A stretch of DNA of 64,000 nt, taken from a virus. The first letter of the stretch is position 1. Every line of letters starts with the position of its first letter. Where the stretch lies: the IMG/VR virus record IMGVR_UViG_3300032236_001478, positions 1-64,000 of that record; one strand, given 5' to 3'. This document shows, piece by piece, positions 6,884 through 24,819 of the stretch. The translations under genes were made by a program, and so were the position numbers. The notes beneath the pieces were generated by a model. That model was not told where the DNA came from, searched no databases, and saw only the letters and a list, made by a program, of their open reading frames with translations.

Positions 6884-7348
6884 TTATTGTTCTTTTCTTT
6901 TCCACTTTGCTTCTCTTAATTCTGGGGATAGTTTAAACTGCTCGTCAATTGTATGTTCAATTTCAACATGCACGCATTTTTGTGGTAATTTGAAATTTTT
7001 ATAATAATTGTTAACGTATCCAATTATATTAGCTGACCCTATTGGATTTGCGGAGTGAACGTAAATTTGTGGTAAGGGTATACCTGTTGATATACTTTCA
7101 GAAACCAAGAATTTAGCTGCGTCGTATCCAGTTTTTTCTGTGATATTAGAATAATCAATCATATAATTTTCTTTAACATTATTATAATATTCTATCATTG
7201 CAGTTTCACCTAAATCGTGATCAAGTGATATCAACTCAAATTTTTCTAAACCATGTAATTTTATTTCATATACTAATTCATCATAGTTTCTAACTAATTT
7301 CCAATCTTTATGTGTTGGTATTCTAACATCGTCAAGATATAATCTCAT
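6884..7348 (-). CDS. Cyclic-phosphate-processing receiver-domain (cREC) protein
   Basis: The product begins MRLYLDDVRIP and contains ISLDHDLG at residues 40-47, the two acidic signatures of the cREC receiver-like family. That family was predicted, from its repeated association with RNA ligases and kinases, to process 2',3'-cyclic phosphate RNA ends. Asp6, Asp7, Asp43, His44 and Asp45 are the likely active-site residues. A later IYVHSAN strand fits the receiver fold. ATG 7348 is chosen because the LYLDD strand normally opens the family; ATG 7363, which overlaps the stop of the RNA ligase gene, is an alternative. It is directly downstream of the ligase gene and is probably translated by coupling. 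Confidence 0.7.
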   Translation of the reverse strand: MRLYLDDVRIPTHKDWKLVRNYDELVYEIKLHGLEKFELISLDHDLGETAMIEYYNNVKENYMIDYSNITEKTGYDAAKFLVSESISTGIPLPQIYVHSANPIGSANIIGYVNNYYKNFKLPQKCVHVEIEHTIDEQFKLSPELREAKWKRKEQ

Positions 7349-7352
7349 TTTT

Positions 7353-8390
7353 TCAATTTTCATCTTTCTTAAAAGGTTTAACATATTTTGGATATAATAA
7401 CTTCCAAATTATTTTATGTGTTGGTTTTCCATCATACATTGCAAATAATAATGCTGAGCATGGAAATTGTTTTGCTTTTTCAGCAAAATCTTTTTTATTA
7501 ATTGAGTATATTGAATTGAAGATATTATTATATTCTTCATCAATCTTATAAAATTGTGTTGTTAAACCGTTAGCAGTTTCTTTTACCCAATCATAAAACT
7601 CATCAGGTACATCTTTGATAAGATCGTCTAATGGCATTTCATCTTTAAGGTGTTCCCATATATCTCTTGATGAAATATTAGTTAACAATCTATGTAATCT
7701 TTTATATTCCTCACCTTTGATTTTCATACGAAAACCATTTCTAAAACGAATTACATAACCTTCTTTATTATTACCAATTTCTTCTTTCAACAAATCATAA
7801 CCTTCTCCCCAAGTTTTATATAACATCACTAAGGGGATTTCAGTTATTCTTGATTCATTATCTAAAACTTTATAAGATAACTCACCACCAGTTTTTGTGT
7901 TAATAATTCCTAATAAGACTAACATTTCATTATTACCATAGTCACATACGATTCTATTTTCAGGATAAATTATTTCAAATAGATATGTGTAATTTTCTAG
8001 TAACTGAGCAGTGTTATATTTTGTATCAAGAATATATTTTCCCATTTGGGCTTGTGGTGATGTAAAAGAACCACGAGTGGCCATAATCCATTCACCAGCA
8101 TAATAAAAAAGGATACCTAAAGATCCATCCATTTTTTCATACACTTCATAATCTTCATTAGGAATGTCTTCTGGTTTGTGTTCTTCGTAGTTAAAGAATT
8201 TCTTAAATGGTCGTGCAACAATATCGCCTTTAGAATTAGTAACTAATCCACGACACATCATTGTAATATCATCCCATAATCTTTCGTATTGAACTTTTGG
8301 TGAATAATTCCAAATAGTTAAATCCAAAGTTGGGTGTGTTTGTTTATGTAACAAACCATCTTGATAATATTTTTCTAATGTAGTTAACAC
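7353..8390 (-). CDS. T4 Rnl1-like RNA ligase
   Basis: ATP-dependent RNA ligases join 5'-phosphate and 3'-OH RNA ends. The nucleotidyltransferase motifs are all visible: motif I EKMDGS with catalytic Lys86, motif III around YLFEI (Glu139), motif IV KEGYVIRF (Glu210) and motif V MKIKGEEY (Lys223, Lys225). The upstream CRGLVTNSKGDIVARPFKKFFN segment is typical of Rnl1. At about 345 aa it is close to T4 Rnl1 (374 aa). The start is a GTG at 8390; the frame is closed a few codons further up. A 37-codon frame (ATG 8457 to a stop near 8344) overlaps the start and might be a leader peptide. The gene lies between the kinase and the cREC gene. Confidence 0.85.
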   Translation of the reverse strand: MLTTLEKYYQDGLLHKQTHPTLDLTIWNYSPKVQYERLWDDITMMCRGLVTNSKGDIVARPFKKFFNYEEHKPEDIPNEDYEVYEKMDGSLGILFYYAGEWIMATRGSFTSPQAQMGKYILDTKYNTAQLLENYTYLFEIIYPENRIVCDYGNNEMLVLLGIINTKTGGELSYKVLDNESRITEIPLVMLYKTWGEGYDLLKEEIGNNKEGYVIRFRNGFRMKIKGEEYKRLHRLLTNISSRDIWEHLKDEMPLDDLIKDVPDEFYDWVKETANGLTTQFYKIDEEYNNIFNSIYSINKKDFAEKAKQFPCSALLFAMYDGKPTHKIIWKLLYPKYVKPFKKDEN

Positions 8391-8457
8391 AATTTTTGAT
8401 TGGTGTTTTTTGTGGTGGATTTACCGATTTAATAAAAGATTCGATAAACTGACTCAT

Positions 8458-8883
8458 TTACAATTTGATTTCAAATCGATTCTTCATTTGAAGAAGTTTA
8501 TCTTCAGGTACACCGTGAATATTTTCACCTCCGTGCCTATTTTCTACAACAACAGTGTGTACACGATAGTTGTATCTTTCAGCCATATCATAATAAGCTT
8601 GCATTTCCCATTCCTGAGTAAATGTATTTGCAACAACAATTTTAGCTTTTCGTTGTCTCATTCTTTCTGAACATCTAAATTGACAATAATTATGAGCTTC
8701 TTTTAATCTGTTTGCATCAAAATTATATGTACCTTCTTTATCCACAAAAAAATCATCAGCAGATAAAATTTCAGGTTCGTCAGTTTCTCTAATTTGTAAT
8801 ATAACTTTTGCTAATGTTGATTTCCCAGAACCGGGTAAACCCCTTAATAATATTAATTCACCTTGCAATTCAACAGTATCCAT
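8458..8883 (-). CDS. P-loop polynucleotide-kinase-like enzyme, single domain
   Basis: Walker A GLPGSGKS is at residues 15-22 and the acidic DD pair at 43-44 (SADDFF). An Arg-rich helix (CSERMRQRKA), the VVANTFTQEWEM strand and NIHGVPEDKL complete the pattern of T4 Pnk-like and N4BP2-like kinases. It would phosphorylate 5'-OH RNA or DNA ends. At 141 aa it lacks the HAD phosphatase domain of T4 Pnkp, so 3'-end healing must come from elsewhere; the cREC protein two genes downstream is the obvious candidate. No promoter is seen in the short gap before it, so expression probably depends on read-through from upstream. Confidence 0.75.
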   Translation of the reverse strand: MDTVELQGELILLRGLPGSGKSTLAKVILQIRETDEPEILSADDFFVDKEGTYNFDANRLKEAHNYCQFRCSERMRQRKAKIVVANTFTQEWEMQAYYDMAERYNYRVHTVVVENRHGGENIHGVPEDKLLQMKNRFEIKL

Positions 8884-9316: not shown

Positions 9317-11335
9317 TTATAAGATTTTTTTTGTCAAAACCAACTTATCGTCTTTATATTTCAATGTAACTGCTTTATTTTCAACAATGTTACCTTTAAG
9401 AATTTCTTCACTTAAGAAATCTTCACACAAATTTTGTATGATTCTTTTAATTGGTCTTGCACCATATTCCTCTTGTGAATTCAATTCTAAAACTCTTTGA
9501 TTAACAGATTCGTCAATTTTGATTTTGTAACCTTTTTCAACTAATCTATTGTTCAATTTGTTTAATTCAATTGAAATGATTTTATTTAATACATTAGTAT
9601 CTAATGCATTAAATAATACAACATCATCAATACGATTTAAGAATTCTGGATTGAATTGTTGCTTCAAGGCTTTTTGTATGATAGTCTTTTTAACTTCATA
9701 CTTTTGTTCTTCACTTGATGTTGTTTGGAATCCCATTCCTGTACCAAATTCAGAAACTTTTTTAGCACCAACATTTGATGTTAAGATAACAAGACAATTG
9801 GTAAAATTAATTTTCTTGCCAAATGAATCTGATAAATGACCTTCATCTAAAATTTGTAATAGAATATTGAAAACATCTTTATGTGCTTTTTCAATTTCAT
9901 CAAATAATATTACTGAGAAAGGATTGTTCTTAATTTTTTCAGTTAATTGACCACCTTCATCATAACCAACGTAACCTGGAGGTGAACCGATTAATTTAGA
10001 AACGCTATGCTTCTCCATAAATTCACTCATATCAACACGAATGATTTTTTCAGGGTCGCCAAATAATGTTTCAGCTAATGATTTAGCTAAGAATGTTTTA
10101 CCAACACCAGTTGACCCTAAGAAAATAAATGAACCAATTGGTTTATTTGCGTCTTTGATACCAACACGATTTCTTCTAATTGCTCTTGAGATAGATGAAA
10201 TAGCTTCGTCCTGACCAATTACTTTAGCAGATAAGACTTCTTCCATTTTCAATAATCTTTGCGACTCTTTCTCGTCCAATTTAGTAATTGGTACACCAGT
10301 AATCATTGAGATCATTTCATAAACATCATCTATTGTAACTGGAACTTTATTATTCTTTTGTGCTTCAGCCCAATTGATTTTTTCTTGTTCCAATTTGTCT
10401 TGCAACTTTCTTTCGTCATCCCTCAACTTAGCAGCTTGTTCGTAAATTTGTTGCTTAACAACTTCCAATTTTTTCTCCTTGATTTCTTCTATTTGCTTTT
10501 TCAATTTTTCAATTGCTTCAGGTACCACAACAGAAGTTTTCTTTTCAGAACCCAATTCATCTAATACATCGATAGCCTTATCAGGAAACTGTTTATCGGT
10601 GATATAACGATGAGCTAACTTAACAATTGTTTCAATAACACCATCATTATATTTTACTTTATGAAAATTCTCATAATTCTCTTGTAAATTTTTCAAGATA
10701 GTGATTGTTTCTTCTTGAGTTGGTTCGTTAAGAATAATTTTTTGGAATCTTCTTGATAACGCACCGTCTTTTTCAATTGATTTTTTATACTCATCAAATG
10801 TGGTTGCACCAATTACTTGAATTTCACCTCTTGCTAATGCAGGTTTCAATATGTTAGCAGCATCCATAGACCCACTAGCATTACCGGCACCGACCATTGT
10901 GTGTAACTCATCAATAAACACAACTACATTGGGTGCTTCTAATAATTCATTTAATATTGCTTTAATTCTTTCCTCGAATTGTCCGCGATATTTTGTTCCA
11001 GCAACAAGAGCAGTTAAATCTAAAGACATGATACGTTTGTCTAAAAGATTTGTTGGACAATTACCTTTTTGGATCATCATTGCTAATTTTTCAACTAACG
11101 CAGATTTACCAACTCCAGCATCGCCAACAATAACAGCATTGTTCTTTTTCTTACGAGATAAAATTTGTGCAATTCTTTTTACCTCAGCATCTCTACCAAC
11201 AATTGGATCAATCTTTCCGTCCTCAGCTAACTTAATTAAGTCGCGAGAAAAATTGTCTAAGATTGGTGTATTGGAACCCTTTTTTGTTTTTTTCGGATTA
11301 AGGGTTGGTCCGTCTTCAAAAAAATCTACTGACAT
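9317..11335 (-). CDS. ClpC-like double AAA+ unfoldase lacking the N-terminal repeat domain
   Basis: Two AAA+ modules are complete. D1 has Walker A GDAGVGKS (71-78) and Walker B VVVFIDE (about 137-142). A middle coiled coil (about 270-330) follows. D2 has Walker A GSTGVGKT (407-414), pore loop GYVGYDE (454-460), Walker B VILFDE (475-480) and sensor region PEFLNRIDD. The usual Clp N-domain of about 150 aa is missing, replaced by a short leader. A GMGF segment (533-536) sits where ClpC carries its ClpP-binding loop, so it may dock on host ClpP rather than act only as a disaggregase. An exact Bacteroidota promoter lies upstream. It is divergent from a small heat-shock gene. Confidence 0.9.
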   Translation of the reverse strand: MSVDFFEDGPTLNPKKTKKGSNTPILDNFSRDLIKLAEDGKIDPIVGRDAEVKRIAQILSRKKKNNAVIVGDAGVGKSALVEKLAMMIQKGNCPTNLLDKRIMSLDLTALVAGTKYRGQFEERIKAILNELLEAPNVVVFIDELHTMVGAGNASGSMDAANILKPALARGEIQVIGATTFDEYKKSIEKDGALSRRFQKIILNEPTQEETITILKNLQENYENFHKVKYNDGVIETIVKLAHRYITDKQFPDKAIDVLDELGSEKKTSVVVPEAIEKLKKQIEEIKEKKLEVVKQQIYEQAAKLRDDERKLQDKLEQEKINWAEAQKNNKVPVTIDDVYEMISMITGVPITKLDEKESQRLLKMEEVLSAKVIGQDEAISSISRAIRRNRVGIKDANKPIGSFIFLGSTGVGKTFLAKSLAETLFGDPEKIIRVDMSEFMEKHSVSKLIGSPPGYVGYDEGGQLTEKIKNNPFSVILFDEIEKAHKDVFNILLQILDEGHLSDSFGKKINFTNCLVILTSNVGAKKVSEFGTGMGFQTTSSEEQKYEVKKTIIQKALKQQFNPEFLNRIDDVVLFNALDTNVLNKIISIELNKLNNRLVEKGYKIKIDESVNQRVLELNSQEEYGARPIKRIIQNLCEDFLSEEILKGNIVENKAVTLKYKDDKLVLTKKIL

Positions 11336-11488: not shown

Positions 11489-11854
11489 ATGATAACATTA
11501 TTTAATAATCCATTTTTTCAAGCATTCGACAAAGCATTCGAATCTAAATTCTTATCAACACCTGAAACTAACATCTCGAAAACTGAAACTGAGTATGTGG
11601 TTTCAATGAGTGTTCCTGGTTTAACCAAGGATGACATTAAAATAAGCACTAAAGAAGGTGTGTTGAAAATCACATATGAAAAATCAGAAGGTGATGTTCA
11701 GCAATATTTTATTGGTAGCTTTATTAAGTCATATAATATTCCAGATGATGTAAAAGAAAAAGATATCGAGGGTAAAGTTGAAAACGGTGTATTAAGATTG
11801 GTATTACCGATAGACAAGAAAAAAGCCATTGAGCGTTTGATTTCACTAAACTAA
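11489..11854 (+). CDS. Small heat-shock protein (Hsp20/alpha-crystallin family)
   Basis: ATG 11489 (MITLFNNPFFQAFDK) is preferred over an in-frame TTG 42 nt upstream that lies inside the promoter. The protein is 121 aa with an alpha-crystallin domain of the IbpA/Hsp20 type: YVVSMSVPGLTKDDIKIS, then GVLKITYEK, then the loop and KVENGVLRLVLP. The C-terminal IxI anchor is not obvious. These proteins hold unfolding clients; with the divergent ClpC-like unfoldase it may form a phage protein-quality-control pair that supports virion assembly. Confidence 0.9.
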   Translation: MITLFNNPFFQAFDKAFESKFLSTPETNISKTETEYVVSMSVPGLTKDDIKISTKEGVLKITYEKSEGDVQQYFIGSFIKSYNIPDDVKEKDIEGKVENGVLRLVLPIDKKKAIERLISLN

Positions 11855-12263: not shown

Positions 12264-12509
12264 ATGTCAGTAATATCAGAAAAAATTGATGGTAAGAATA
12301 TCATCGTAGAAGTTAAGTCTTCTAACATTAAATCAGCACATTATAACACAGAAAGCGAAAATTTAACTGTAACATTTAATACAGGTGGTATTTATGAATA
12401 CGCTAAAGTTCCTTGGCAGAAGTTTACTAAGTTTAGAATGGCTGAATCGCATGGTAAATTTTTCAATGAACAAATAGCAAAAGCACACAAATACACAAAG
12501 GTAAAATGA
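12264..12509 (+). CDS. KTSC-domain protein, copy 2
   Basis: This 81-aa paralogue of the preceding gene has the same core: SSNIKSAHYNTESENLTVTF, NTGGIYEYAKVP and KFRMAESHGKFFNEQI. The different promoters suggest the two copies are expressed at different times. Its stop overlaps the start of the nucleotidyltransferase gene by 4 bp (ATGA), so the two are coupled and may work together. Confidence 0.75.
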   Translation: MSVISEKIDGKNIIVEVKSSNIKSAHYNTESENLTVTFNTGGIYEYAKVPWQKFTKFRMAESHGKFFNEQIAKAHKYTKVK

Positions 12510-13249
12510 GTTTATTCGAAGAATTGATTGAGGATAAAAAGGAGGATAAAAAGATTATTAAATCTTTTGAGACCAAAGAAACGTTATCACCGCAGATATT
12601 TGAGGCTAACGAAAAGATGCGTGAAGATGTTAAAAATAGGTTATTGGATATATCTGATGATTTTATTGAGTCTTTGGGGGTTGAATTTTTCATACATGAT
12701 ATAGTTTTAACAGGTTCATTAGCAAATTACAATTGGAGCAGTTATAGCGATGTTGATTTACATATTGTTATTGATTTTGAGGATTCAGAATACGATCCGG
12801 CATTGCTTAAAGAATATTTCGACGCAAAGAAAAACGTTTGGAACGAAAAACATAAGATTAAAATTAAAGGATATGATGTTGAGATTTATGTACAAGACGT
12901 AAAAGAACCACATATATCTTCTGGTGTTTATTCAGTTCTTAATGGAAAATGGGTTATCAAACCTAGTAAAAAGAAAGTAAAAATAGACGATACTAAAATA
13001 TTGCAAAAAGCAGAATCAATTGCAAATAAGGTTAATAGCTTAAGAATTGATACTGATAAAGCGATTCTAAATAAAATTGAAGACCTAAGAAAAAAGCTTA
13101 AGGAGTTTAGACAATCCGGTTTAGATACTGGTGGTGAATACTCTTATGAGAATTTAGTATTCAAATTATTAAGAAGAAATGGTACTATTAAGAAACTATT
13201 GGACTTAAAAACAAAGCTAATCGACAATAAATTGTCTGTAGCGCAATAA
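12506..13249 (+). CDS. Nucleotidyltransferase-fold protein
   Basis: This 247-aa protein has the Pol-beta-type motif LTGSLANYNWSSYSDVDLHI: Gly70-Ser71 and Asp82/Asp84, with a third acidic position likely in GYDVEIYVQD near residue 125. The catalytic set is therefore complete, unlike many inactive homologues. The C-terminal third is a Lys-rich helical region. The substrate cannot be told from sequence; nucleotidylation of RNA or protein is possible. It is coupled to a KTSC gene and lies at the head of the packaging gene block. It ends before a weak AATAA/TTATT hairpin with a T tract. Confidence 0.7.
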   Translation: MSLFEELIEDKKEDKKIIKSFETKETLSPQIFEANEKMREDVKNRLLDISDDFIESLGVEFFIHDIVLTGSLANYNWSSYSDVDLHIVIDFEDSEYDPALLKEYFDAKKNVWNEKHKIKIKGYDVEIYVQDVKEPHISSGVYSVLNGKWVIKPSKKKVKIDDTKILQKAESIANKVNSLRIDTDKAILNKIEDLRKKLKEFRQSGLDTGGEYSYENLVFKLLRRNGTIKKLLDLKTKLIDNKLSVAQ

Positions 13250-17531: not shown

Positions 17532-17539
17532 TATTTATA
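17532..17539 (+). promoter_or_regulatory. Late-type box TATTTATA before terminase
   Basis: An exact box only 5 nt before ATG 17545, directly after a terminator; the transcript would be leaderless or nearly so. Confidence 0.6.
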
Positions 17540-17544
17540 CATAT

Positions 17545-19320
17545 ATGAATACAAAAATAGAACAGTTAAAAGAATACGCAAGGATAATGAAAGATTGTCC
17601 TTATGCACTTAGAACTTACCTACAAACATATGACAACACACAAAAAAATTATGTTCCGTTAGTATTATTTCCTGACCAAGAAAGATTAATCTTGGATTAT
17701 GAAGAATACAATGAAAACATTACAAAAAAATATAGACAAGCCGGAGTATCAACAGTTACCGCTGCTTGGGTTTCTAGAAAATTACAATTAGCTAAACCTG
17801 AAAAACCAGAAAGGGTATTGTGTATTGCAAACAAACGTGATACTGCAATTGAATTAGCAAATAAAATCAGACATTTCTTAGAGCAATGGCCTGAATGGAT
17901 GAATGTTGGGTTTTCACCTGATAAAAACTCAGAAAGTAGATTTAGATTAAATAATGGTTGTGAAGTAAAAGCGGTTGCAACCTCAGGTGACGCCTTGCGT
18001 GGTTATACACCTACAATATTGATATTTGACGAGGCTGCGTATATTGAAGCTGGCGAAGACTTCTGGGCGGCTTCTATGGCCTCTCTTTCTACGGGTGGTA
18101 AGATTATATTGATTTCAACACCAAATGGTTACGATCCAATTTATTATGGTGTTTATGACCAAGCGGTTCGTAAAATGAATGACTTTCATATTACAGATTT
18201 AAGATGGTTTAAAGATCCACGTTATACTAAAGATTTGAGATGGGTTAAATGTAACGACATTTGTCATTATATGTTAAACAGAGAACAATACAATGATGAT
18301 GAAGTTGTTATGTATGATTTTGATATTGAAAAATACAGAGAGTACGAAGAACAGGGTTATAAACCATTTTCATCTTGGTTTGAGTCAATGTCTAAAAAAT
18401 TCAAGTTTGATAGACGTAAAATTGCACAGGAGTTGGAATGTGACTTTTTGGGTTCTGGTGATGGTGTTATTCCAGGGGATGTGCAACAAGATATAAGAAA
18501 AAATCAAATCAGAGAACCCAAAGAAAAGTATATGCAAGGTACGATGTGGCAATGGAAAGAGCCAGTAATCGGACATCGTTATATTATGGGTGTTGACGTT
18601 AGTAGAGGTGATAGTGAAGATTTTTCATCAATAAGTGTTATTGATTTTGATGAAAGAGAACAAGTATTAGAATATATCGGTAAGATACCACCAGATGATT
18701 TAGCGGCTATAGCATATAAATGGGGTGTATTATATGATGCATTTATTGTTATAGATATAACAGGTGGTATGGGTATTGCAACATCAAGAAAGTTACAAGA
18801 AATGAATTATAAAAACTTGTATATTGATGGTATTAATACACAGAATGTTTGGGAGTATGATAAAAAGAAATTAGAGAAAATACCAGGTATTAATTTCAAC
18901 AATAAAAGAACGCAAATAATTGCTGCATTTGAGGAACAAGTTAGAAAGGGTTTCCAAATACGTTCAAGTAGACTATTAAATGAATTGAATACATTCGTTT
19001 ATGTTAATGGTAGACCAGATCACATGAAAGGTGCGCATGACGATGCTATTATGAGTATGTCTATGGCATTGTTTGCTGGTGAAATATCATTTAGTCAGTT
19101 AACTAAGAACACAAATCAAAACAAAGCTATGATTGAGTCATGGGCTATGTCAGAAAGAACGTATGAACCTCAAAAGTCATTTTATTCTTATGGACCAGCA
19201 ATGGATATGATAGGATCAATGGCTATGGATAATCAACAAATTTACCATAGAGATAATCCAATGAATATGCCACAAAACGCTTATCAAGATTATAGATGGT
19301 TATTTGGGCCTCGTAAATAG
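17545..19320 (+). CDS. terL: Terminase large subunit (gp17-like)
   Basis: The packaging motor ATPase and nuclease, 591 aa, close to T4 gp17 (610 aa). Walker A-like RQAGVST is at 64-70, Walker B TILIFDEAA at about 157-165 and the coupling motif STPNG near 191-195. The RNase H-like nuclease has VDVSRGDSEDF (Asp351) and a late acidic motif in KGAHDDAIMSMSMALF near residue 500. It has its own late-type box and precedes portal, the usual T4 order. The product docks on the portal and fills proheads with DNA. Confidence 0.95.
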   Translation: MNTKIEQLKEYARIMKDCPYALRTYLQTYDNTQKNYVPLVLFPDQERLILDYEEYNENITKKYRQAGVSTVTAAWVSRKLQLAKPEKPERVLCIANKRDTAIELANKIRHFLEQWPEWMNVGFSPDKNSESRFRLNNGCEVKAVATSGDALRGYTPTILIFDEAAYIEAGEDFWAASMASLSTGGKIILISTPNGYDPIYYGVYDQAVRKMNDFHITDLRWFKDPRYTKDLRWVKCNDICHYMLNREQYNDDEVVMYDFDIEKYREYEEQGYKPFSSWFESMSKKFKFDRRKIAQELECDFLGSGDGVIPGDVQQDIRKNQIREPKEKYMQGTMWQWKEPVIGHRYIMGVDVSRGDSEDFSSISVIDFDEREQVLEYIGKIPPDDLAAIAYKWGVLYDAFIVIDITGGMGIATSRKLQEMNYKNLYIDGINTQNVWEYDKKKLEKIPGINFNNKRTQIIAAFEEQVRKGFQIRSSRLLNELNTFVYVNGRPDHMKGAHDDAIMSMSMALFAGEISFSQLTKNTNQNKAMIESWAMSERTYEPQKSFYSYGPAMDMIGSMAMDNQQIYHRDNPMNMPQNAYQDYRWLFGPRK

Positions 19321-19362: not shown

Positions 19363-19370
19363 TATTTATA
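19363..19370 (+). promoter_or_regulatory. Late-type box TATTTATA before portal
   Basis: An exact box 6 nt before ATG 19377. Confidence 0.6.
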
Positions 19371-19376
19371 TAGAAT

Positions 19377-21224
19377 ATGGCACAAAATCCTACTGTCTTT
19401 CAGAAACTAACAAGAATGTTCGGTTTTCCGGGCCAAACCCCAAAACAGGATACACCTTCGTTTAATTTCAGTAAAGATGAAATATTAAAAACAGATAGTA
19501 GAGAAGATTATGAAAAAGCAATGTTGCAAGCTCAACAGAGTCAATACATTGCTGACAAATGGACAAAATTAGATCAATCTCTCTACAACCAATCGGTTTA
19601 TTACGAACCTAATAGACTTGCAGCATACTATGACTATGAATCAATGGAATTTACTCCAGAGGTTTCAGCAGCGTTAGATATCTATGCGGAAGAATCAACA
19701 ACAATGTCAGAGAAAGGTGAGATATTAACTATCTATTCTGATTCTGATAGAGTTAAAAGTATATTACATGATTTATTTCATACTAAAATGGATATCAATA
19801 CGAACTTACAAATGTGGGCTCGTGGTATGTCAAAGTATGGCGATAACTTTGTTTATCTTAAAATAGATCCAGAAAAAGGTATTGTTGGTGTTCAACAATT
19901 ACCGAATATTGAAATAGAAAGAATTGAAGGTGCAGCATCTAAGACACCAAATCAAAAAGATATTAAAGTACCAACAAGAGAATTAAGATTCCAATGGAAG
20001 AATAAAGATTTGGAATTTCAAGCTTGGGAAGTTGCTCACTTTAGATTATTAGGTGATGATAGAAAATTACCTTATGGTACTTCAATGTTAGATAAAATTA
20101 GACGTATTTGGAAACAATTATTATTGGCTGAAGATGCGATGTTAATTTATAGAACATCTAGAGCACCTGAAAGACGTGTATTTAAGGTTTTCGTTGGTAA
20201 TATGGATGATAAAGATATTGATCCATACGTACAACGTGTTGCTAATAAATTTAAGCGTCAACCAGTTTCTGATCCTCGTAACGGCCAAGTGGATATGAGA
20301 TATAACCAAATGGCAGTAGATCAGGATTTCTTTATTCCAGTTCGTGACCCAGGGCAACAATCTCCGATTGAAACATTACCTGGAGCACAGAATTTAGGTG
20401 AGATTGCCGACATTGAATATATCCAAAAGAAAATGTTAGCTGCTCTTCGTATTCCAAAAGCATTTTTAGGTTTCGAGGAAGTTGTTGGTGATGGTAAGAA
20501 TTTAGCATTAATGGATATACGTTTTGCTAGAACAATTAATAAAATCCAAAAATCTTTAATACAAGAATTAAATAAAGTTGCGTTAATACATCTATTCTTA
20601 TTAGGAATGGAAGATGATTACACAAACTTCCAATTATCTTTAACAAACCCATCTGCACAATCTGATTTATTAAGAATTGAGCAATGGAAAGAAAAGGTAA
20701 CGTTATATAAAGATGCAACATCAGATCAATCACAAGTTGGTATTTTACCAGTATCACATACATGGGCTAAAAAGAATATCTTAGGATTTAGTGATAGTGA
20801 AGTATTACTTGATTTACAACAACAACGTTTAGAAAGAGCTATTGGATTTGAGTTAACAAACACACAAAATATTATTAAGCGTTCTGGTGTATTTGATGAT
20901 GTTGATTCTAAATATGGTATACCTGAAGATGAAAGAGAAGCATTAGAAAAATCAGGACAATTAGGTGGAGAAGCTCCAGGTGGTGGTGAAGGCGGTGCTT
21001 TAGGCGGCGCAGAATTAGGTGGTGCTCCTGCTGGAGGCGCACCAGAAGGTGGTGGTGGCGAAGCACCATTAAGTGAAAATTTCTTCGTTAAATCAAAAAG
21101 ATCTAAAATATTATCAATGTTAGACGAAACATCTGCTGAAGATAACATATTATTCGATATGGAACGTGCACAACGTAATATTTATGAAATAGAAAATAAA
21201 ATAAAAGACATATTAAACGACTAA
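19377..21224 (+). CDS. gp20: Portal protein (gp20-like)
   Basis: This 615-aa protein has the T4-type portal signature YYDYESMEFTPEVSAALDIYAEE near residues 80-105 and the clip/stem region with RIWKQLLLAEDAMLIYRTSRAPERRVFKV. It forms the dodecameric ring through which terminase pumps DNA. A Gly/Ala/Glu-rich linker (about 525-560) and an LSENFF segment near the C-terminus are unlike T4 and may be trimmed by the prohead protease. It is followed 2 nt later by a coupled gene. Confidence 0.93.
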   Translation: MAQNPTVFQKLTRMFGFPGQTPKQDTPSFNFSKDEILKTDSREDYEKAMLQAQQSQYIADKWTKLDQSLYNQSVYYEPNRLAAYYDYESMEFTPEVSAALDIYAEESTTMSEKGEILTIYSDSDRVKSILHDLFHTKMDINTNLQMWARGMSKYGDNFVYLKIDPEKGIVGVQQLPNIEIERIEGAASKTPNQKDIKVPTRELRFQWKNKDLEFQAWEVAHFRLLGDDRKLPYGTSMLDKIRRIWKQLLLAEDAMLIYRTSRAPERRVFKVFVGNMDDKDIDPYVQRVANKFKRQPVSDPRNGQVDMRYNQMAVDQDFFIPVRDPGQQSPIETLPGAQNLGEIADIEYIQKKMLAALRIPKAFLGFEEVVGDGKNLALMDIRFARTINKIQKSLIQELNKVALIHLFLLGMEDDYTNFQLSLTNPSAQSDLLRIEQWKEKVTLYKDATSDQSQVGILPVSHTWAKKNILGFSDSEVLLDLQQQRLERAIGFELTNTQNIIKRSGVFDDVDSKYGIPEDEREALEKSGQLGGEAPGGGEGGALGGAELGGAPAGGAPEGGGGEAPLSENFFVKSKRSKILSMLDETSAEDNILFDMERAQRNIYEIENKIKDILND

Positions 21225-21226
21225 CA

Positions 21227-21964
21227 ATGAATAAATTTGGTGTAGTAAAATCTAAATTGTTAACCAAACTAACTGAATCTTACGCAAAACAAAACAAAGC
21301 AGAGATTAAAGATATATTAACAACAATAAAGGAAAATAAAGATTTTAAGGAAATGTATTTGTTTTACGAAGAAATCGAAAACAAATATATTGAAGATAAT
21401 GAAATTGCAAAATTATATGTTGAGGGATTAAGCACTTATTTTGGTCAATCAATTAGTAACTTAAATATGTTTTGTGAATCATTAGAAAGTAAATTAGTTG
21501 ATATAGAAATTACAACTAATGAAATATATGAATCATTAGATATATTATGTGAAAAAGATTCATTATCAAATATTGAAAAAAAGGTTATTGCAAAAAAGAA
21601 ATTAATCGAGCACTTAACAACTAAAAAAGAAATTAAAGAATCAAAAGAAACTACTTTAGTACCAAATGAAACCCTCCTTAATGCGATATTGGCTAACAAC
21701 TTTAATGTACTCTACAATCAAACATTATCTGAATCAGAAAAAGAAGAATTGAAAAATATATTATCAATTTCTCATGATGATTTAGTTACTAAAAGTAATG
21801 AATTAGCAGAATCGGTTATTAATCAAATATCATCACTTTTAAGTGAATCAAATGATACTGATTTATCTAAGAAATTAAATGCTGTGAAAAACGAGGTTAC
21901 TCAAATGAGTCCATCGCGATACAATTATTACAGATTAACAGAATTAAAGAACGGACTTAATTAA
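21227..21964 (+). CDS. Helical prohead-core candidate between portal and protease
   Basis: This 245-aa Lys/Glu/Asn-rich, largely helical and coiled-coil protein has no membrane segment. In T4 the small core proteins gp67 and gp68 lie between genes 20 and 21, and this gene is in the same place. An LTESYA site near residue 15 could be a protease cut. The C-terminal LKNGLN is encoded by one arm of a palindromic terminator shared with the convergent bS21 gene. Sequence alone does not identify it. Confidence 0.6.
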   Translation: MNKFGVVKSKLLTKLTESYAKQNKAEIKDILTTIKENKDFKEMYLFYEEIENKYIEDNEIAKLYVEGLSTYFGQSISNLNMFCESLESKLVDIEITTNEIYESLDILCEKDSLSNIEKKVIAKKKLIEHLTTKKEIKESKETTLVPNETLLNAILANNFNVLYNQTLSESEKEELKNILSISHDDLVTKSNELAESVINQISSLLSESNDTDLSKKLNAVKNEVTQMSPSRYNYYRLTELKNGLN

Positions 21965-21975
21965 GTCCGTTTTTT
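21950..21975. terminator. Perfect 22-bp palindromic terminator shared by convergent genes
   Basis: AACGGACTTAA / TTAAGTCCGTT (21950-21971) is an uninterrupted palindrome with five T following on the plus side. It covers the last codons and stop of both flanking genes, so both end in KNGLN. Confidence 0.85.
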
Positions 21976-22148
21976 ATTTGTTGTACGTAGATAGCTTTCA
22001 ATTTTTCTGTTCTTTTTATTACAGATGGTTTTGTGAAAGTTTGTCTATCTCTCAATTTTTGGATTTGCTTTGTTTTCTGAACTTTATTTTTATAAGTTCT
22101 TAAAGCACTTTCGATTGTTTTTTCTTTTGTTACGTCGATTATAATCAT
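21957..22148 (-). CDS. rpsU: Ribosomal protein bS21 homologue
   Basis: This 63-aa protein starting MIIIDVTKEKTIESALRTYK follows the bS21 pattern of a short beta strand and two basic helices: KVQKTKQIQKLRDRQTF, then KPSVIKRTEKLKAIYVQQI. It resembles the Bacteroidota form (RRQAF.KPS, KA.Y). In those hosts bS21, with bS6 and bS18, helps hide the anti-Shine-Dalgarno end of 16S rRNA; Tyr54 here lies where a conserved Tyr contacts it. ATG 22148 is preferred to an upstream in-frame ATG at 22166, which would overlap the -7 box. It is a lone minus-strand gene inside the plus-strand head module, with a host-type -7 element. Confidence 0.85.
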   Translation of the reverse strand: MIIIDVTKEKTIESALRTYKNKVQKTKQIQKLRDRQTFTKPSVIKRTEKLKAIYVQQIKNGLN

Positions 22149-22165
22149 ATGAAATAAGTATATCA

Positions 22166-22173
22166 CAAATATA
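22166..22173 (-). promoter_or_regulatory. Host-type -7 element TATATTTG before bS21
   Basis: An exact TAnnTTTG in minus sense, 17 nt upstream of ATG 22148. No clear TTTG lies at the right distance, so only the -7 half is firm. Confidence 0.5.
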
Positions 22174-22182
22174 TTAATTATT

Positions 22183-22214
22183 TTTGGAATTATAAGTTTT
22201 TTTTGTTATTTTTC
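22183..22214 (+). promoter_or_regulatory. Bacteroidota-type promoter, divergent from bS21
   Basis: TTTG (22183-22186), 20 nt, TATTTTTC (22207-22214, one mismatch). It drives the gene at 22252. Confidence 0.55.
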
Positions 22215-22251
22215 ATTATACACCATAAAAAATGTTAATGACAAATGAATA

Positions 22252-22677
22252 ATGAAAATTGGTAAGTATATCCCATTGGGATCGTACAACGAAGTAAAAA
22301 TCGGTTATGGCACCGTAGATCATAAGAACTTAAAGACCATTTATCTTAAATTAAATTCCTGGGTTCAACCAGATAATGAAACCGAAGATTTCGATTCTTT
22401 AATACAAAAAACAAGAAGGAAAATTAAAGAAATGGTGTATAATCTTAATTCACCATATTTCAAGAAACAATGTATTGTTGATTTAGATATTAGAACAAAA
22501 GGCATTAAGCTTGATAAACGTTCTTTTATGAATCTAGAAATAACATTATATGTTGAGAATTTCTTTGATATTAAAACATCTGATACAAAAAAATTAGTTA
22601 AAGATATCTTATTGCAAACAATAGACACAACTTTAATTGATAAAAAGCTATTCAATTTCCACAAAAACAAGAAATAA
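22252..22677 (+). CDS. Hypothetical head-module protein
   Basis: A 141-aa alpha/beta protein, not recognised. It begins MKIGKYIPLGSYNEVKIGYG and has two charged beta-rich halves separated by a helix (TRRKIKEMVYNL). There is no signal or transmembrane segment. It lies between bS21 and the protease and has a host-type rather than late-type promoter, which sets it apart from its head-gene neighbours. Confidence 0.6.
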   Translation: MKIGKYIPLGSYNEVKIGYGTVDHKNLKTIYLKLNSWVQPDNETEDFDSLIQKTRRKIKEMVYNLNSPYFKKQCIVDLDIRTKGIKLDKRSFMNLEITLYVENFFDIKTSDTKKLVKDILLQTIDTTLIDKKLFNFHKNKK

Positions 22678-22691
22678 TGCTGATATCATAG

Positions 22692-22699
22692 TATTTATA
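22692..22699 (+). promoter_or_regulatory. Late-type box TATTTATA before prohead protease
   Basis: An exact box 16 nt before ATG 22716. Confidence 0.6.
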
Positions 22700-22715: not shown

Positions 22716-23405
22716 ATGAAGATATTAGGACCAAAAGAATCCGGACACGGAATTTTGATTGAATACGACGCAGGACACGTTTCACCTGACGAAAACAAAA
22801 AAATATTACAAGAAGCTATGGAATTAGATTTTTCTAAAGATCTAATTCTATATGCTGTTTTGCAAAAATACGACACTCCAAATAAGAACGGTAGAATCTA
22901 CCCAAAACCTATTCTTTACAGAGAAAACGAAAAATATCAATCACTAATCAAAAAAGGTAGTGCATTGAATGAATTAAACCACCCATCTTCCTCACTTATC
23001 GATTTAGACAGAGTTTCACACTCAATTCTTGAAACATGGTGGGATGGTAAAATGTTAATGGGAAAAATCAAATTATTTACATCTCCAGGTTGGAAGAAAA
23101 TGGGTATAGTATCCACTAAAGGGGATCAAGCAGCTATGTTATTAATGAACGGTGCAACATTAGGTATTTCATCTCGTGGTGTTGGTTCATTGAAACAAGT
23201 TAAAGGTGAGAACATAGTACAAGATGATTATGAACTTGTATGTTTTGATTTAGTGTCATCACCATCAACTCCAGGTGCTTATGTATTTAAAGATCCATCC
23301 GAAAGAGATCAATTCCAAGAAGAGGTTGCAGAACGTCAAGCGCCTCAAGTTGATGACCGAATGAAAAAATTAATGGGTCGTCTTGATAGTTTTTTAGGTA
23401 AATAA
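22716..23405 (+). CDS. gp21: Prohead maturation protease (gp21-like)
   Basis: This 229-aa serine protease of the T4 gp21/herpesvirus assemblin-like group cleaves scaffold and capsid at L-x-E sites during head maturation. His89 is in LNHPSSSLIDLDRVSH, the nucleophile is Ser152 or Ser153 in LGISSRGVG, and the downstream CFDLVSSPSTPGA segment is characteristic. Length and position between portal and scaffold match T4. Confidence 0.93.
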   Translation: MKILGPKESGHGILIEYDAGHVSPDENKKILQEAMELDFSKDLILYAVLQKYDTPNKNGRIYPKPILYRENEKYQSLIKKGSALNELNHPSSSLIDLDRVSHSILETWWDGKMLMGKIKLFTSPGWKKMGIVSTKGDQAAMLLMNGATLGISSRGVGSLKQVKGENIVQDDYELVCFDLVSSPSTPGAYVFKDPSERDQFQEEVAERQAPQVDDRMKKLMGRLDSFLGK

Positions 23406-23458: not shown

Positions 23459-23466
23459 TATTTATA
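23459..23466 (+). promoter_or_regulatory. Late-type box TATTTATA before scaffold
   Basis: An exact box 27 nt before ATG 23494. Confidence 0.6.
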
Positions 23467-23493: not shown

Positions 23494-24819
23494 ATGAGCG
23501 AAAAAAACATTTTAGAACAAGCACTTCTTCAAATTAATACATTAGAAGAAGCTGTAAAGCAAAACGCAAAAGGTATACTGGCTTCAACTATGAAGGAAGA
23601 ACTTAAAGACTTGCTTAAAGAATCATTGGAAGAAGAGGAAGAGACTCATCCTATGGATGAAGCAACTCCTGAAGAAGAGGAAGAAAAAGATATGTCAGGT
23701 GACGACGACGCATCTTCTGAAGAAGAAGATACTGAGTTAGATACTGATGATGACACAGACCTCGATAACGCAGACGAACCAACTGGTGAGTTTGGATCAG
23801 AAGAAGATGCTGATAGCGACGTTGAAGACGGCGAATATCCTGCAGATTCTGAAATGGACACAGATGCTGATACTGATTCAGATATGGGTCTTGATGCAAA
23901 CGACGATGTTGATAGTGACGACGATGTAATGGATATGACAGGTGCTTCTGACGAAGAAGTTATTAGAGTATTCAAGAAAATGAAACCAGAAGATGGTATC
24001 GTTGTTAAAAAAGACGGTAATACAGTTGAGTTCCAAGATGGCGACAACGACTACGTTATCAAATTAGATGAAAATGAAGAATCACATGATGAGACTTTAT
24101 ATGAAATCGATTTAGACGAAGAGGAAGAAGAAGAAACTGAAGAAGAAGTTCATGAAGAAAAACACCCTGGTGTTAAAGGTCATGGTCCTAAAAAAGTAAG
24201 TTTCGAGCCAGCTAAGAAAGGTTTCGACGAGAAAAAATCTCACGTTAACCCTCTTAAAAACACTCACAAACCAAAGAAATTTGAGTTCTCTGAGGAAGAA
24301 GAAGGTACTGAAGAAAAAATCGAAGCAACTGAAGCTGCAAGAACAAAATCAAATCCACACGGTGATAAAAACGGTATGGATAGAGCAGGTATAAAATCTA
24401 AAAAGATGTATAAAGCCGGTTCATCAATCAACGAAGAAGTTGAAACTTTGAAAAAACAAAATGCTGAGTATAAAAAAGCTTTAGTATTGTTTAAGGATAA
24501 GTTAAACGAAGTTGCTGTGTTCAATGCAAACTTAGCTTACGCTACACGTCTATTTACTGAAAATTCAACAACAAAAACGGAGAAACTTAATATATTAAAG
24601 AGATTTGATACAGTTTCTTCTTTACAAGAATCAAAAAGCTTGTTTAATACAATACAATCTGAATTAAGCACAAAAACTACAACAGTTGCTGAATCAGTTG
24701 CAGAAAAAATCTCTAGCACACCATCAACATCATCTTCTACTGAGGTATTATCAGAAGCTAAGGCTTATGAAAATCCACAATTCAGCAGAATGAAAGATTT
24801 GATGAAAAAATTAAAATAA
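23494..24819 (+). CDS. gp22: Prohead scaffold/core protein (gp22-like)
   Basis: This 441-aa protein has a helical N-terminus (residues 1-50), a very long Asp/Glu-rich block (about 45-150), a second Glu-rich block near 205-225, a basic middle (GHGPKKVSFEPAKKG) and a C-terminal coiled coil that begins near EEVETLKKQ. T4 gp22 is also an acidic helical scaffold next to gp21 and gp23. The last residues, FSRMKDLMKKLK, resemble terminal helices in other proteins here and may bind capsid or portal. LSEAKAY near the C-terminus is a likely protease site. Confidence 0.85.
   Translation: MSEKNILEQALLQINTLEEAVKQNAKGILASTMKEELKDLLKESLEEEEETHPMDEATPEEEEEKDMSGDDDASSEEEDTELDTDDDTDLDNADEPTGEFGSEEDADSDVEDGEYPADSEMDTDADTDSDMGLDANDDVDSDDDVMDMTGASDEEVIRVFKKMKPEDGIVVKKDGNTVEFQDGDNDYVIKLDENEESHDETLYEIDLDEEEEEETEEEVHEEKHPGVKGHGPKKVSFEPAKKGFDEKKSHVNPLKNTHKPKKFEFSEEEEGTEEKIEATEAARTKSNPHGDKNGMDRAGIKSKKMYKAGSSINEEVETLKKQNAEYKKALVLFKDKLNEVAVFNANLAYATRLFTENSTTKTEKLNILKRFDTVSSLQESKSLFNTIQSELSTKTTTVAESVAEKISSTPSTSSSTEVLSEAKAYENPQFSRMKDLMKKLK

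Follow-up and report, generated by a model that had tools for sequence, protein, structure and literature searches.

A phage bS21 gene with a host-like promoter box and no Shine-Dalgarno sequence: possible escape from host autoregulation

The Bacteroidota-type bS21 gene carried within the head module of a large tailed phage of Bacteroidota appears, from a comparison of leader sequences, to keep the promoter box of host rpsU genes without the Shine-Dalgarno (SD) brake that limits bS21 in many of the likely hosts, and it is this combination that is new here. The protein, its position and its Tyr54 were already known, as the arrangement was published by Chen et al. 2022 (PMC9723584). In Flavobacterium johnsoniae bS21 is autoregulated, in that the extended SD of the rpsU mRNA is read well only by ribosomes lacking bS21, and the authors of that work proposed that host autoregulation would counter a phage bS21 (McNutt et al. 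2023, PMC9976891). Contrary to this proposal, our comparison suggests that the phage gene sits outside the host autoregulation loop. To the question of what phages gain from a bS21 of their own, the comparison of cis elements offers a concrete mechanism, namely escape from and use of the autoregulation loop, within reach of the F. johnsoniae strains and reporters already available. We found no literature on phage bS21 together with autoregulation beyond PMC9723584 and PMC9976891.

The window is the whole 64,000-nt stretch of DNA that we analysed; the virus record from which it comes has 81,623 bases (81.6 kb) and is a tailed-phage fragment, and the remaining 17.6 kb of this record were covered as well. 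The genes were called mechanically, as ATG open reading frames (ORFs) with overlaps removed. The record has one bS21 copy, and no tRNA genes were found in the window. The features around the gene are the following.

17532..17539, plus strand: putative late-type box TATTTATA before terL
17545-19320, plus strand: terL
19363..19370, plus strand: putative late-type box TATTTATA before the portal gene
19377-21224, plus strand: portal gene
21227..21964, plus strand: gp245, convergent neighbour without assigned function, overlapping the bS21 stop by 8 nt
21950..21971, both strands: terminator-like stem with T-run, common to the convergent 3' ends of gp245 and bS21
21957..22148, minus strand: phage bS21 (rpsU-like) gene, ATG start, 63 aa, Tyr54 conserved
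22153..22160, minus strand: late-like box TACTTATT, 4 nt before the bS21 ATG, with two mismatches to TATTTATA (one in most relatives)
22166..22173, minus strand: putative host-type -7 box TATATTTG, 17 nt before the bS21 ATG
22181..22187, minus strand: CCAAAAA element upstream of the -7 box, kept in most relatives
22252..22677, plus strand: gp141, divergent neighbour without assigned function
22692..22699, plus strand: putative late-type box TATTTATA before the prohead protease gene
22716-23405, plus strand: prohead protease gene
23459..23466, plus strand: putative late-type box TATTTATA before gp441
23494-24819, plus strand: gp441

An earlier sequence-only reading of this DNA had called a phage bS21 at 21957-22173. 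The identification is confirmed by three family matches: the ORF matches the Pfam family PF01165 (Ribosomal_S21) with an E-value of 3.6e-12 and 46.3 bits against a curated cut-off of 27, across most of the domain (profile positions 2-54 of 55), and the 63-aa protein is also assigned to TIGR00030 (NCBIfam) and PHROG 21469. The ORF within that span is real and covers 21957-22148, while the upper limit of 22173 takes in the -7 box at 22166-22173. When the protein was aligned with a Flavobacterium-type bS21, as that reading had proposed, no gap was needed against the F. johnsoniae protein (7JIL), and the Tyr contact residue is present, with Tyr54 falling on Tyr54.

The local gene order is terL, portal, gp245, reversed bS21, gp141, prohead protease, gp441 and major capsid protein, and bS21, which the sequence-only reading had described as alone on the minus strand in the late head module, is indeed the sole minus-strand gene between portal/gp245 and gp141/protease. 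A protein search of IMG/VR gave 199 relatives of the phage bS21, and we analysed the best 80 of these 199 matches. The reversed bS21 gene with the same neighbour order and orientation was seen in 80/80 of them, counting the neighbours present on each contig. Chen et al. (PMC9723584) described bS21 as reversed within the terL-portal-protease-MCP block in large phages of freshwater Bacteroidetes, and their phages share with ours the same reversed position between hypothetical genes, the Tyr54, the separate phage clade and the Bacteroidota-type hosts. The two studies differ in that the promoter boxes and the missing SD are not discussed in those portions of that paper that we consulted, and in that our phage is represented by the 81.6-kb fragment. 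The cultured relative Flavobacterium phage immuto (TerL 28% identical) has a similar head module and no reversed bS21. Neither gp245 nor gp141 matched a Pfam family. A fold search for the function of gp141 gave no PDB match with an E-value under 0.001, its best VIA Z of 7.7 being within the range common for unrelated folds, and in BFVD it returned one uncharacterised myovirus protein. The leader of gp141 has ACACCATAA at 22220-22228 on the plus strand, which is kept in 30 of 39 distinct relatives, and CACCATAA is kept in 34 of the 39; ACACCATAA occurs in the record once on the plus strand and twice on the minus strand.

The SD of the phage genes and that of the host rpsU genes differ. The sequence-only reading had supposed that this phage uses few SD sites, and we found that SD use is no more than chance, with SD matches of at least 4 nt before 7 of the 80 phage genes against 5.3 +/- 2.1 expected by shuffling. 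None of the 45 distinct phage bS21 leaders has an SD of at least 5 nt, and the extended SD before the start codon that marks an SD-autoregulated rpsU is absent from the phage gene. In contrast, the top-scoring rpsU genes of 30 Flavobacteriaceae genomes have TAnnTTTG in 30/30 and an SD of at least 5 nt in 29/30. The Flavobacteriaceae rpsU genes (PMC9976891) and the phage gene thus share the family, Tyr54 and the TAnnTTTG box upstream, whereas the phage leader is shorter, with the box about -25 relative to the ATG rather than at the 32-47 nt found in nearly all SD-bearing host rpsU genes, and has no SD. Many host rpsU genes across the wider class are SD-less, and since these include several Bacteroidia lineages, escape from autoregulation has meaning only where the host rpsU has an SD. 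Many Flavobacteriaceae also have a second bS21 gene, which is SD-less like the phage gene but has no TAnnTTTG in the leaders inspected and falls on a different tree branch.

Position 54, where a Bacteroidia-type protein that closes the anti-SD should have Tyr or another aromatic residue, is Tyr in 45/45 phage bS21 proteins, and SD-bearing host bS21 proteins have Tyr54 in all but one, the exception being truncated. K40, P41, S42, R46, A52 and Y54 are invariant between the aligned phage and host proteins. In the N-terminal helix, however, the host residues R/K14, R/K18, R/K21 and F23, nearly invariant in hosts, are consistently replaced in phages by S/T, T, N/Q/S and V, respectively; N-terminal divergence of phage bS21 was also noted by Chen et al. 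(PMC9723584). This pattern fits a protein that would still bind the ribosome and close the anti-SD, with a different face where the mRNA passes. In the tree 44 phage proteins form one clade (100/100) on a long branch (length 1.3), with Ferruginibacter-type proteins, whose genes have SDs, as the nearest hosts (99/89 for the set). The absence of the SD could also be ancestral, because the phage clade is on a long branch and at most 53% identical to the sampled host proteins. We rejected naming a host from bS21 in view of the best host identity of 53% and the long branch.

The host-type -7 box claimed in the sequence-only reading is well supported and sets the gene apart from the late genes around it. 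TAnnTTTG is present in 35/45 distinct bS21 leaders of the relatives and in 0/124 distinct leaders that precede terL, portal, protease and gp441, a contrast for which Fisher p-values overstate the number of events, the leaders of related phages being non-independent. Where a relative has the exact TATATTTG, its first base is always 24-27 nt ahead of the bS21 ATG, and 43/45 of the leaders are at most one mismatch from it. Only four called genes of the record have TAnnTTTG at most 60 nt from their start: bS21, an uncharacterised small gene, and the genes for a Clp-type ATPase (9317-11335) and an Hsp20 (11489-11854), whose boxes are host-type like that of bS21. A TTG element at -33 was looked for before the bS21 box and not found, CCAAAAA standing in its place. 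The composite of CCAAAA followed by TATATTTG was considered as a general early promoter and rejected, having one site in the record and few in ten related records. These data suggest that the bS21 box is a host-type promoter with no -33 element evident.

A different box precedes the structural genes. TATTTATA occurs 21 times in the record, both strands together, and lies within 60 nt upstream of 17 of the 80 called genes, where shuffling predicts 1.5. The 17 include terL, portal, protease, gp441 and tail sheath. In the relatives it is found in 118 of the 124 distinct terL/portal/protease/gp441 leaders, while only 8/45 bS21 leaders have it exactly. A related 129.7-kb record has it ahead of an endolysin gene, and the immuto phage has it ahead of terL, of the portal gene and of the gene that follows. 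On the strength of the genes that it precedes (terL, portal, protease, tail sheath, endolysin and those of immuto) we infer that TATTTATA is a late-type promoter box, for which no literature was found beyond PMC9723584 and PMC9976891. For terL and portal the gap between the end of TATTTATA and the ATG is just 3-6 nt in nearly all relatives, so that, if it is a promoter box, the late mRNAs of these two genes would be leaderless or nearly so.

The bS21 gene in the window has no exact TATTTATA upstream. Most relatives have instead a conserved TA[C/A/T]TTAT(A) 4-5 nt before the bS21 ATG, and 31/45 bS21 leaders are at most one mismatch from TATTTATA against 6 expected, at the very place which the exact box takes in terL and portal. 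The sequence-only reading had held that bS21 is probably made before the late genes. What stands of this is that, to judge by the host-type box, bS21 could be expressed without waiting for the late system; what speaks against it is the near-late box in most leaders, together with metatranscriptomes of relatives in which bS21 RNA was reported alongside that of structural genes (PMC9723584). Early plus late transcription fits better than transcription only before the late genes, because most bS21 leaders hold a near-TATTTATA box. Tandem control by a host-type and a weak late-type promoter would reconcile the early reading with the late RNA of Chen et al. The published view of phage bS21 as simply a late gene is qualified by these leader boxes.

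The mechanism that we somewhat favour is that the phage bS21 enters the host 30S subunit, keeps the anti-SD closed and escapes the SD brake, with transcription by the host polymerase independent of the late system. The host polymerase would transcribe bS21 without the late system, and the gene would probably be transcribed again late through the near-late box. The protein would then join 30S subunits, either replacing the host bS21 or adding to it, and hold the anti-SD in its pocket, which would leave the ribosomes fit for the SD-less mRNAs of the phage. As the mRNA of the phage bS21 has no SD, its translation would not be shut off as ribosomes fill with bS21, and it could be made even while the ribosomes are already full. 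Loss of bS21 or the Y54A change frees the anti-SD for the SD-bearing rpsU mRNA (PMC9976891); closure of the anti-SD by the phage protein should hold an SD-bearing host rpsU down. The outcome might be that host bS21 gives way to phage bS21 in one direction only. The fuller form of this idea, that a host-type promoter without an SD brake allows the phage to refill 30S subunits, close the anti-SD and turn off the SD-dependent host rpsU, thereby taking over the feedback loop, is one we put forward only tentatively and regard as rather unlikely; if true, it would mean that a ribosomal feedback loop had been seized to make the replacement of a ribosomal protein one-way. The altered N-terminal helix may also make ribosomes prefer phage mRNAs.

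Incorporation into ribosomes has a precedent in the bS21 of the Pelagibacter phage HTVC008M, a different phage with a different host, which E. coli ribosomes were reported to take up (Mizuno et al. 2019, through PMC9723584 and PMC9976891). We found no published report of 30S incorporation for the present protein or for any Bacteroidota phage bS21.

Several other explanations have to be weighed against escape from the brake. Chen et al. (PMC9723584), who found Tyr54 or another aromatic residue and predicted Bacteroidetes hosts, proposed that the host bS21 is replaced late in infection, in which case a late-made bS21 would make ribosomes prefer the phage structural mRNAs. The RNA found with structural genes and the near-late box that most leaders have 4-5 nt ahead of the ATG speak for such a late hijack. 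Still, population RNA cannot separate early from late, and the exact late box is found in few bS21 leaders and in nearly all those of the neighbouring genes, a host-type box being found instead; we hold this proposal to be plausible, while leaning against it. The phage might also merely top up an exchangeable bS21 as host expression fails, with mRNA choice unchanged and the SD escape serving supply only. The C-terminal, rRNA-binding part and Tyr54 are closely conserved, bS21 can dissociate from ribosomes, initiation on SD-less mRNA is weaker once the protein or its C terminus is lost (PMC9976891), and the phage mRNAs are SD-less, all of which suit plain supply; the changes in the N-terminal helix are not required for it, and we consider it doubtful as the whole explanation.

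The sequence-only reading had left two alternatives, that a phage bS21 either strengthens sequestration of the anti-SD or releases the anti-SD for some mRNAs. The first, in the sense that sequestration is strengthened or maintained, is favoured. Release, through which some SD-bearing mRNAs would be translated, could draw on the consistent N-terminal changes, but it is disfavoured, because every phage protein has Tyr54 and the phage SD frequency is at chance, and it would moreover favour the host rpsU; we judge it very improbable. We give scarcely any credence to a function outside the ribosome, or to bS21 being packaged in the virion for delivery at infection. The place of the gene among head genes is in keeping with these ideas, and packaging was raised in PMC9723584, yet the rRNA-binding residues of the host proteins are kept in the phage and no evidence of packaging was seen.

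Some further observations concern other genes. Using a host-type bS21 as query against viral contigs, we found one further lineage of viral bS21, represented by three contigs, in which the Tyr is kept, no SD is present and the gene lies close behind another ORF. The record has a possible RNA-repair cluster at 6884-8883 on the minus strand, made of a cyclic-phosphate processing receiver domain, a T4-type RNA ligase and an AAA_33 kinase-like protein, and at 12506-13249 it encodes a nucleotidyltransferase-domain protein with a weak Pfam match.
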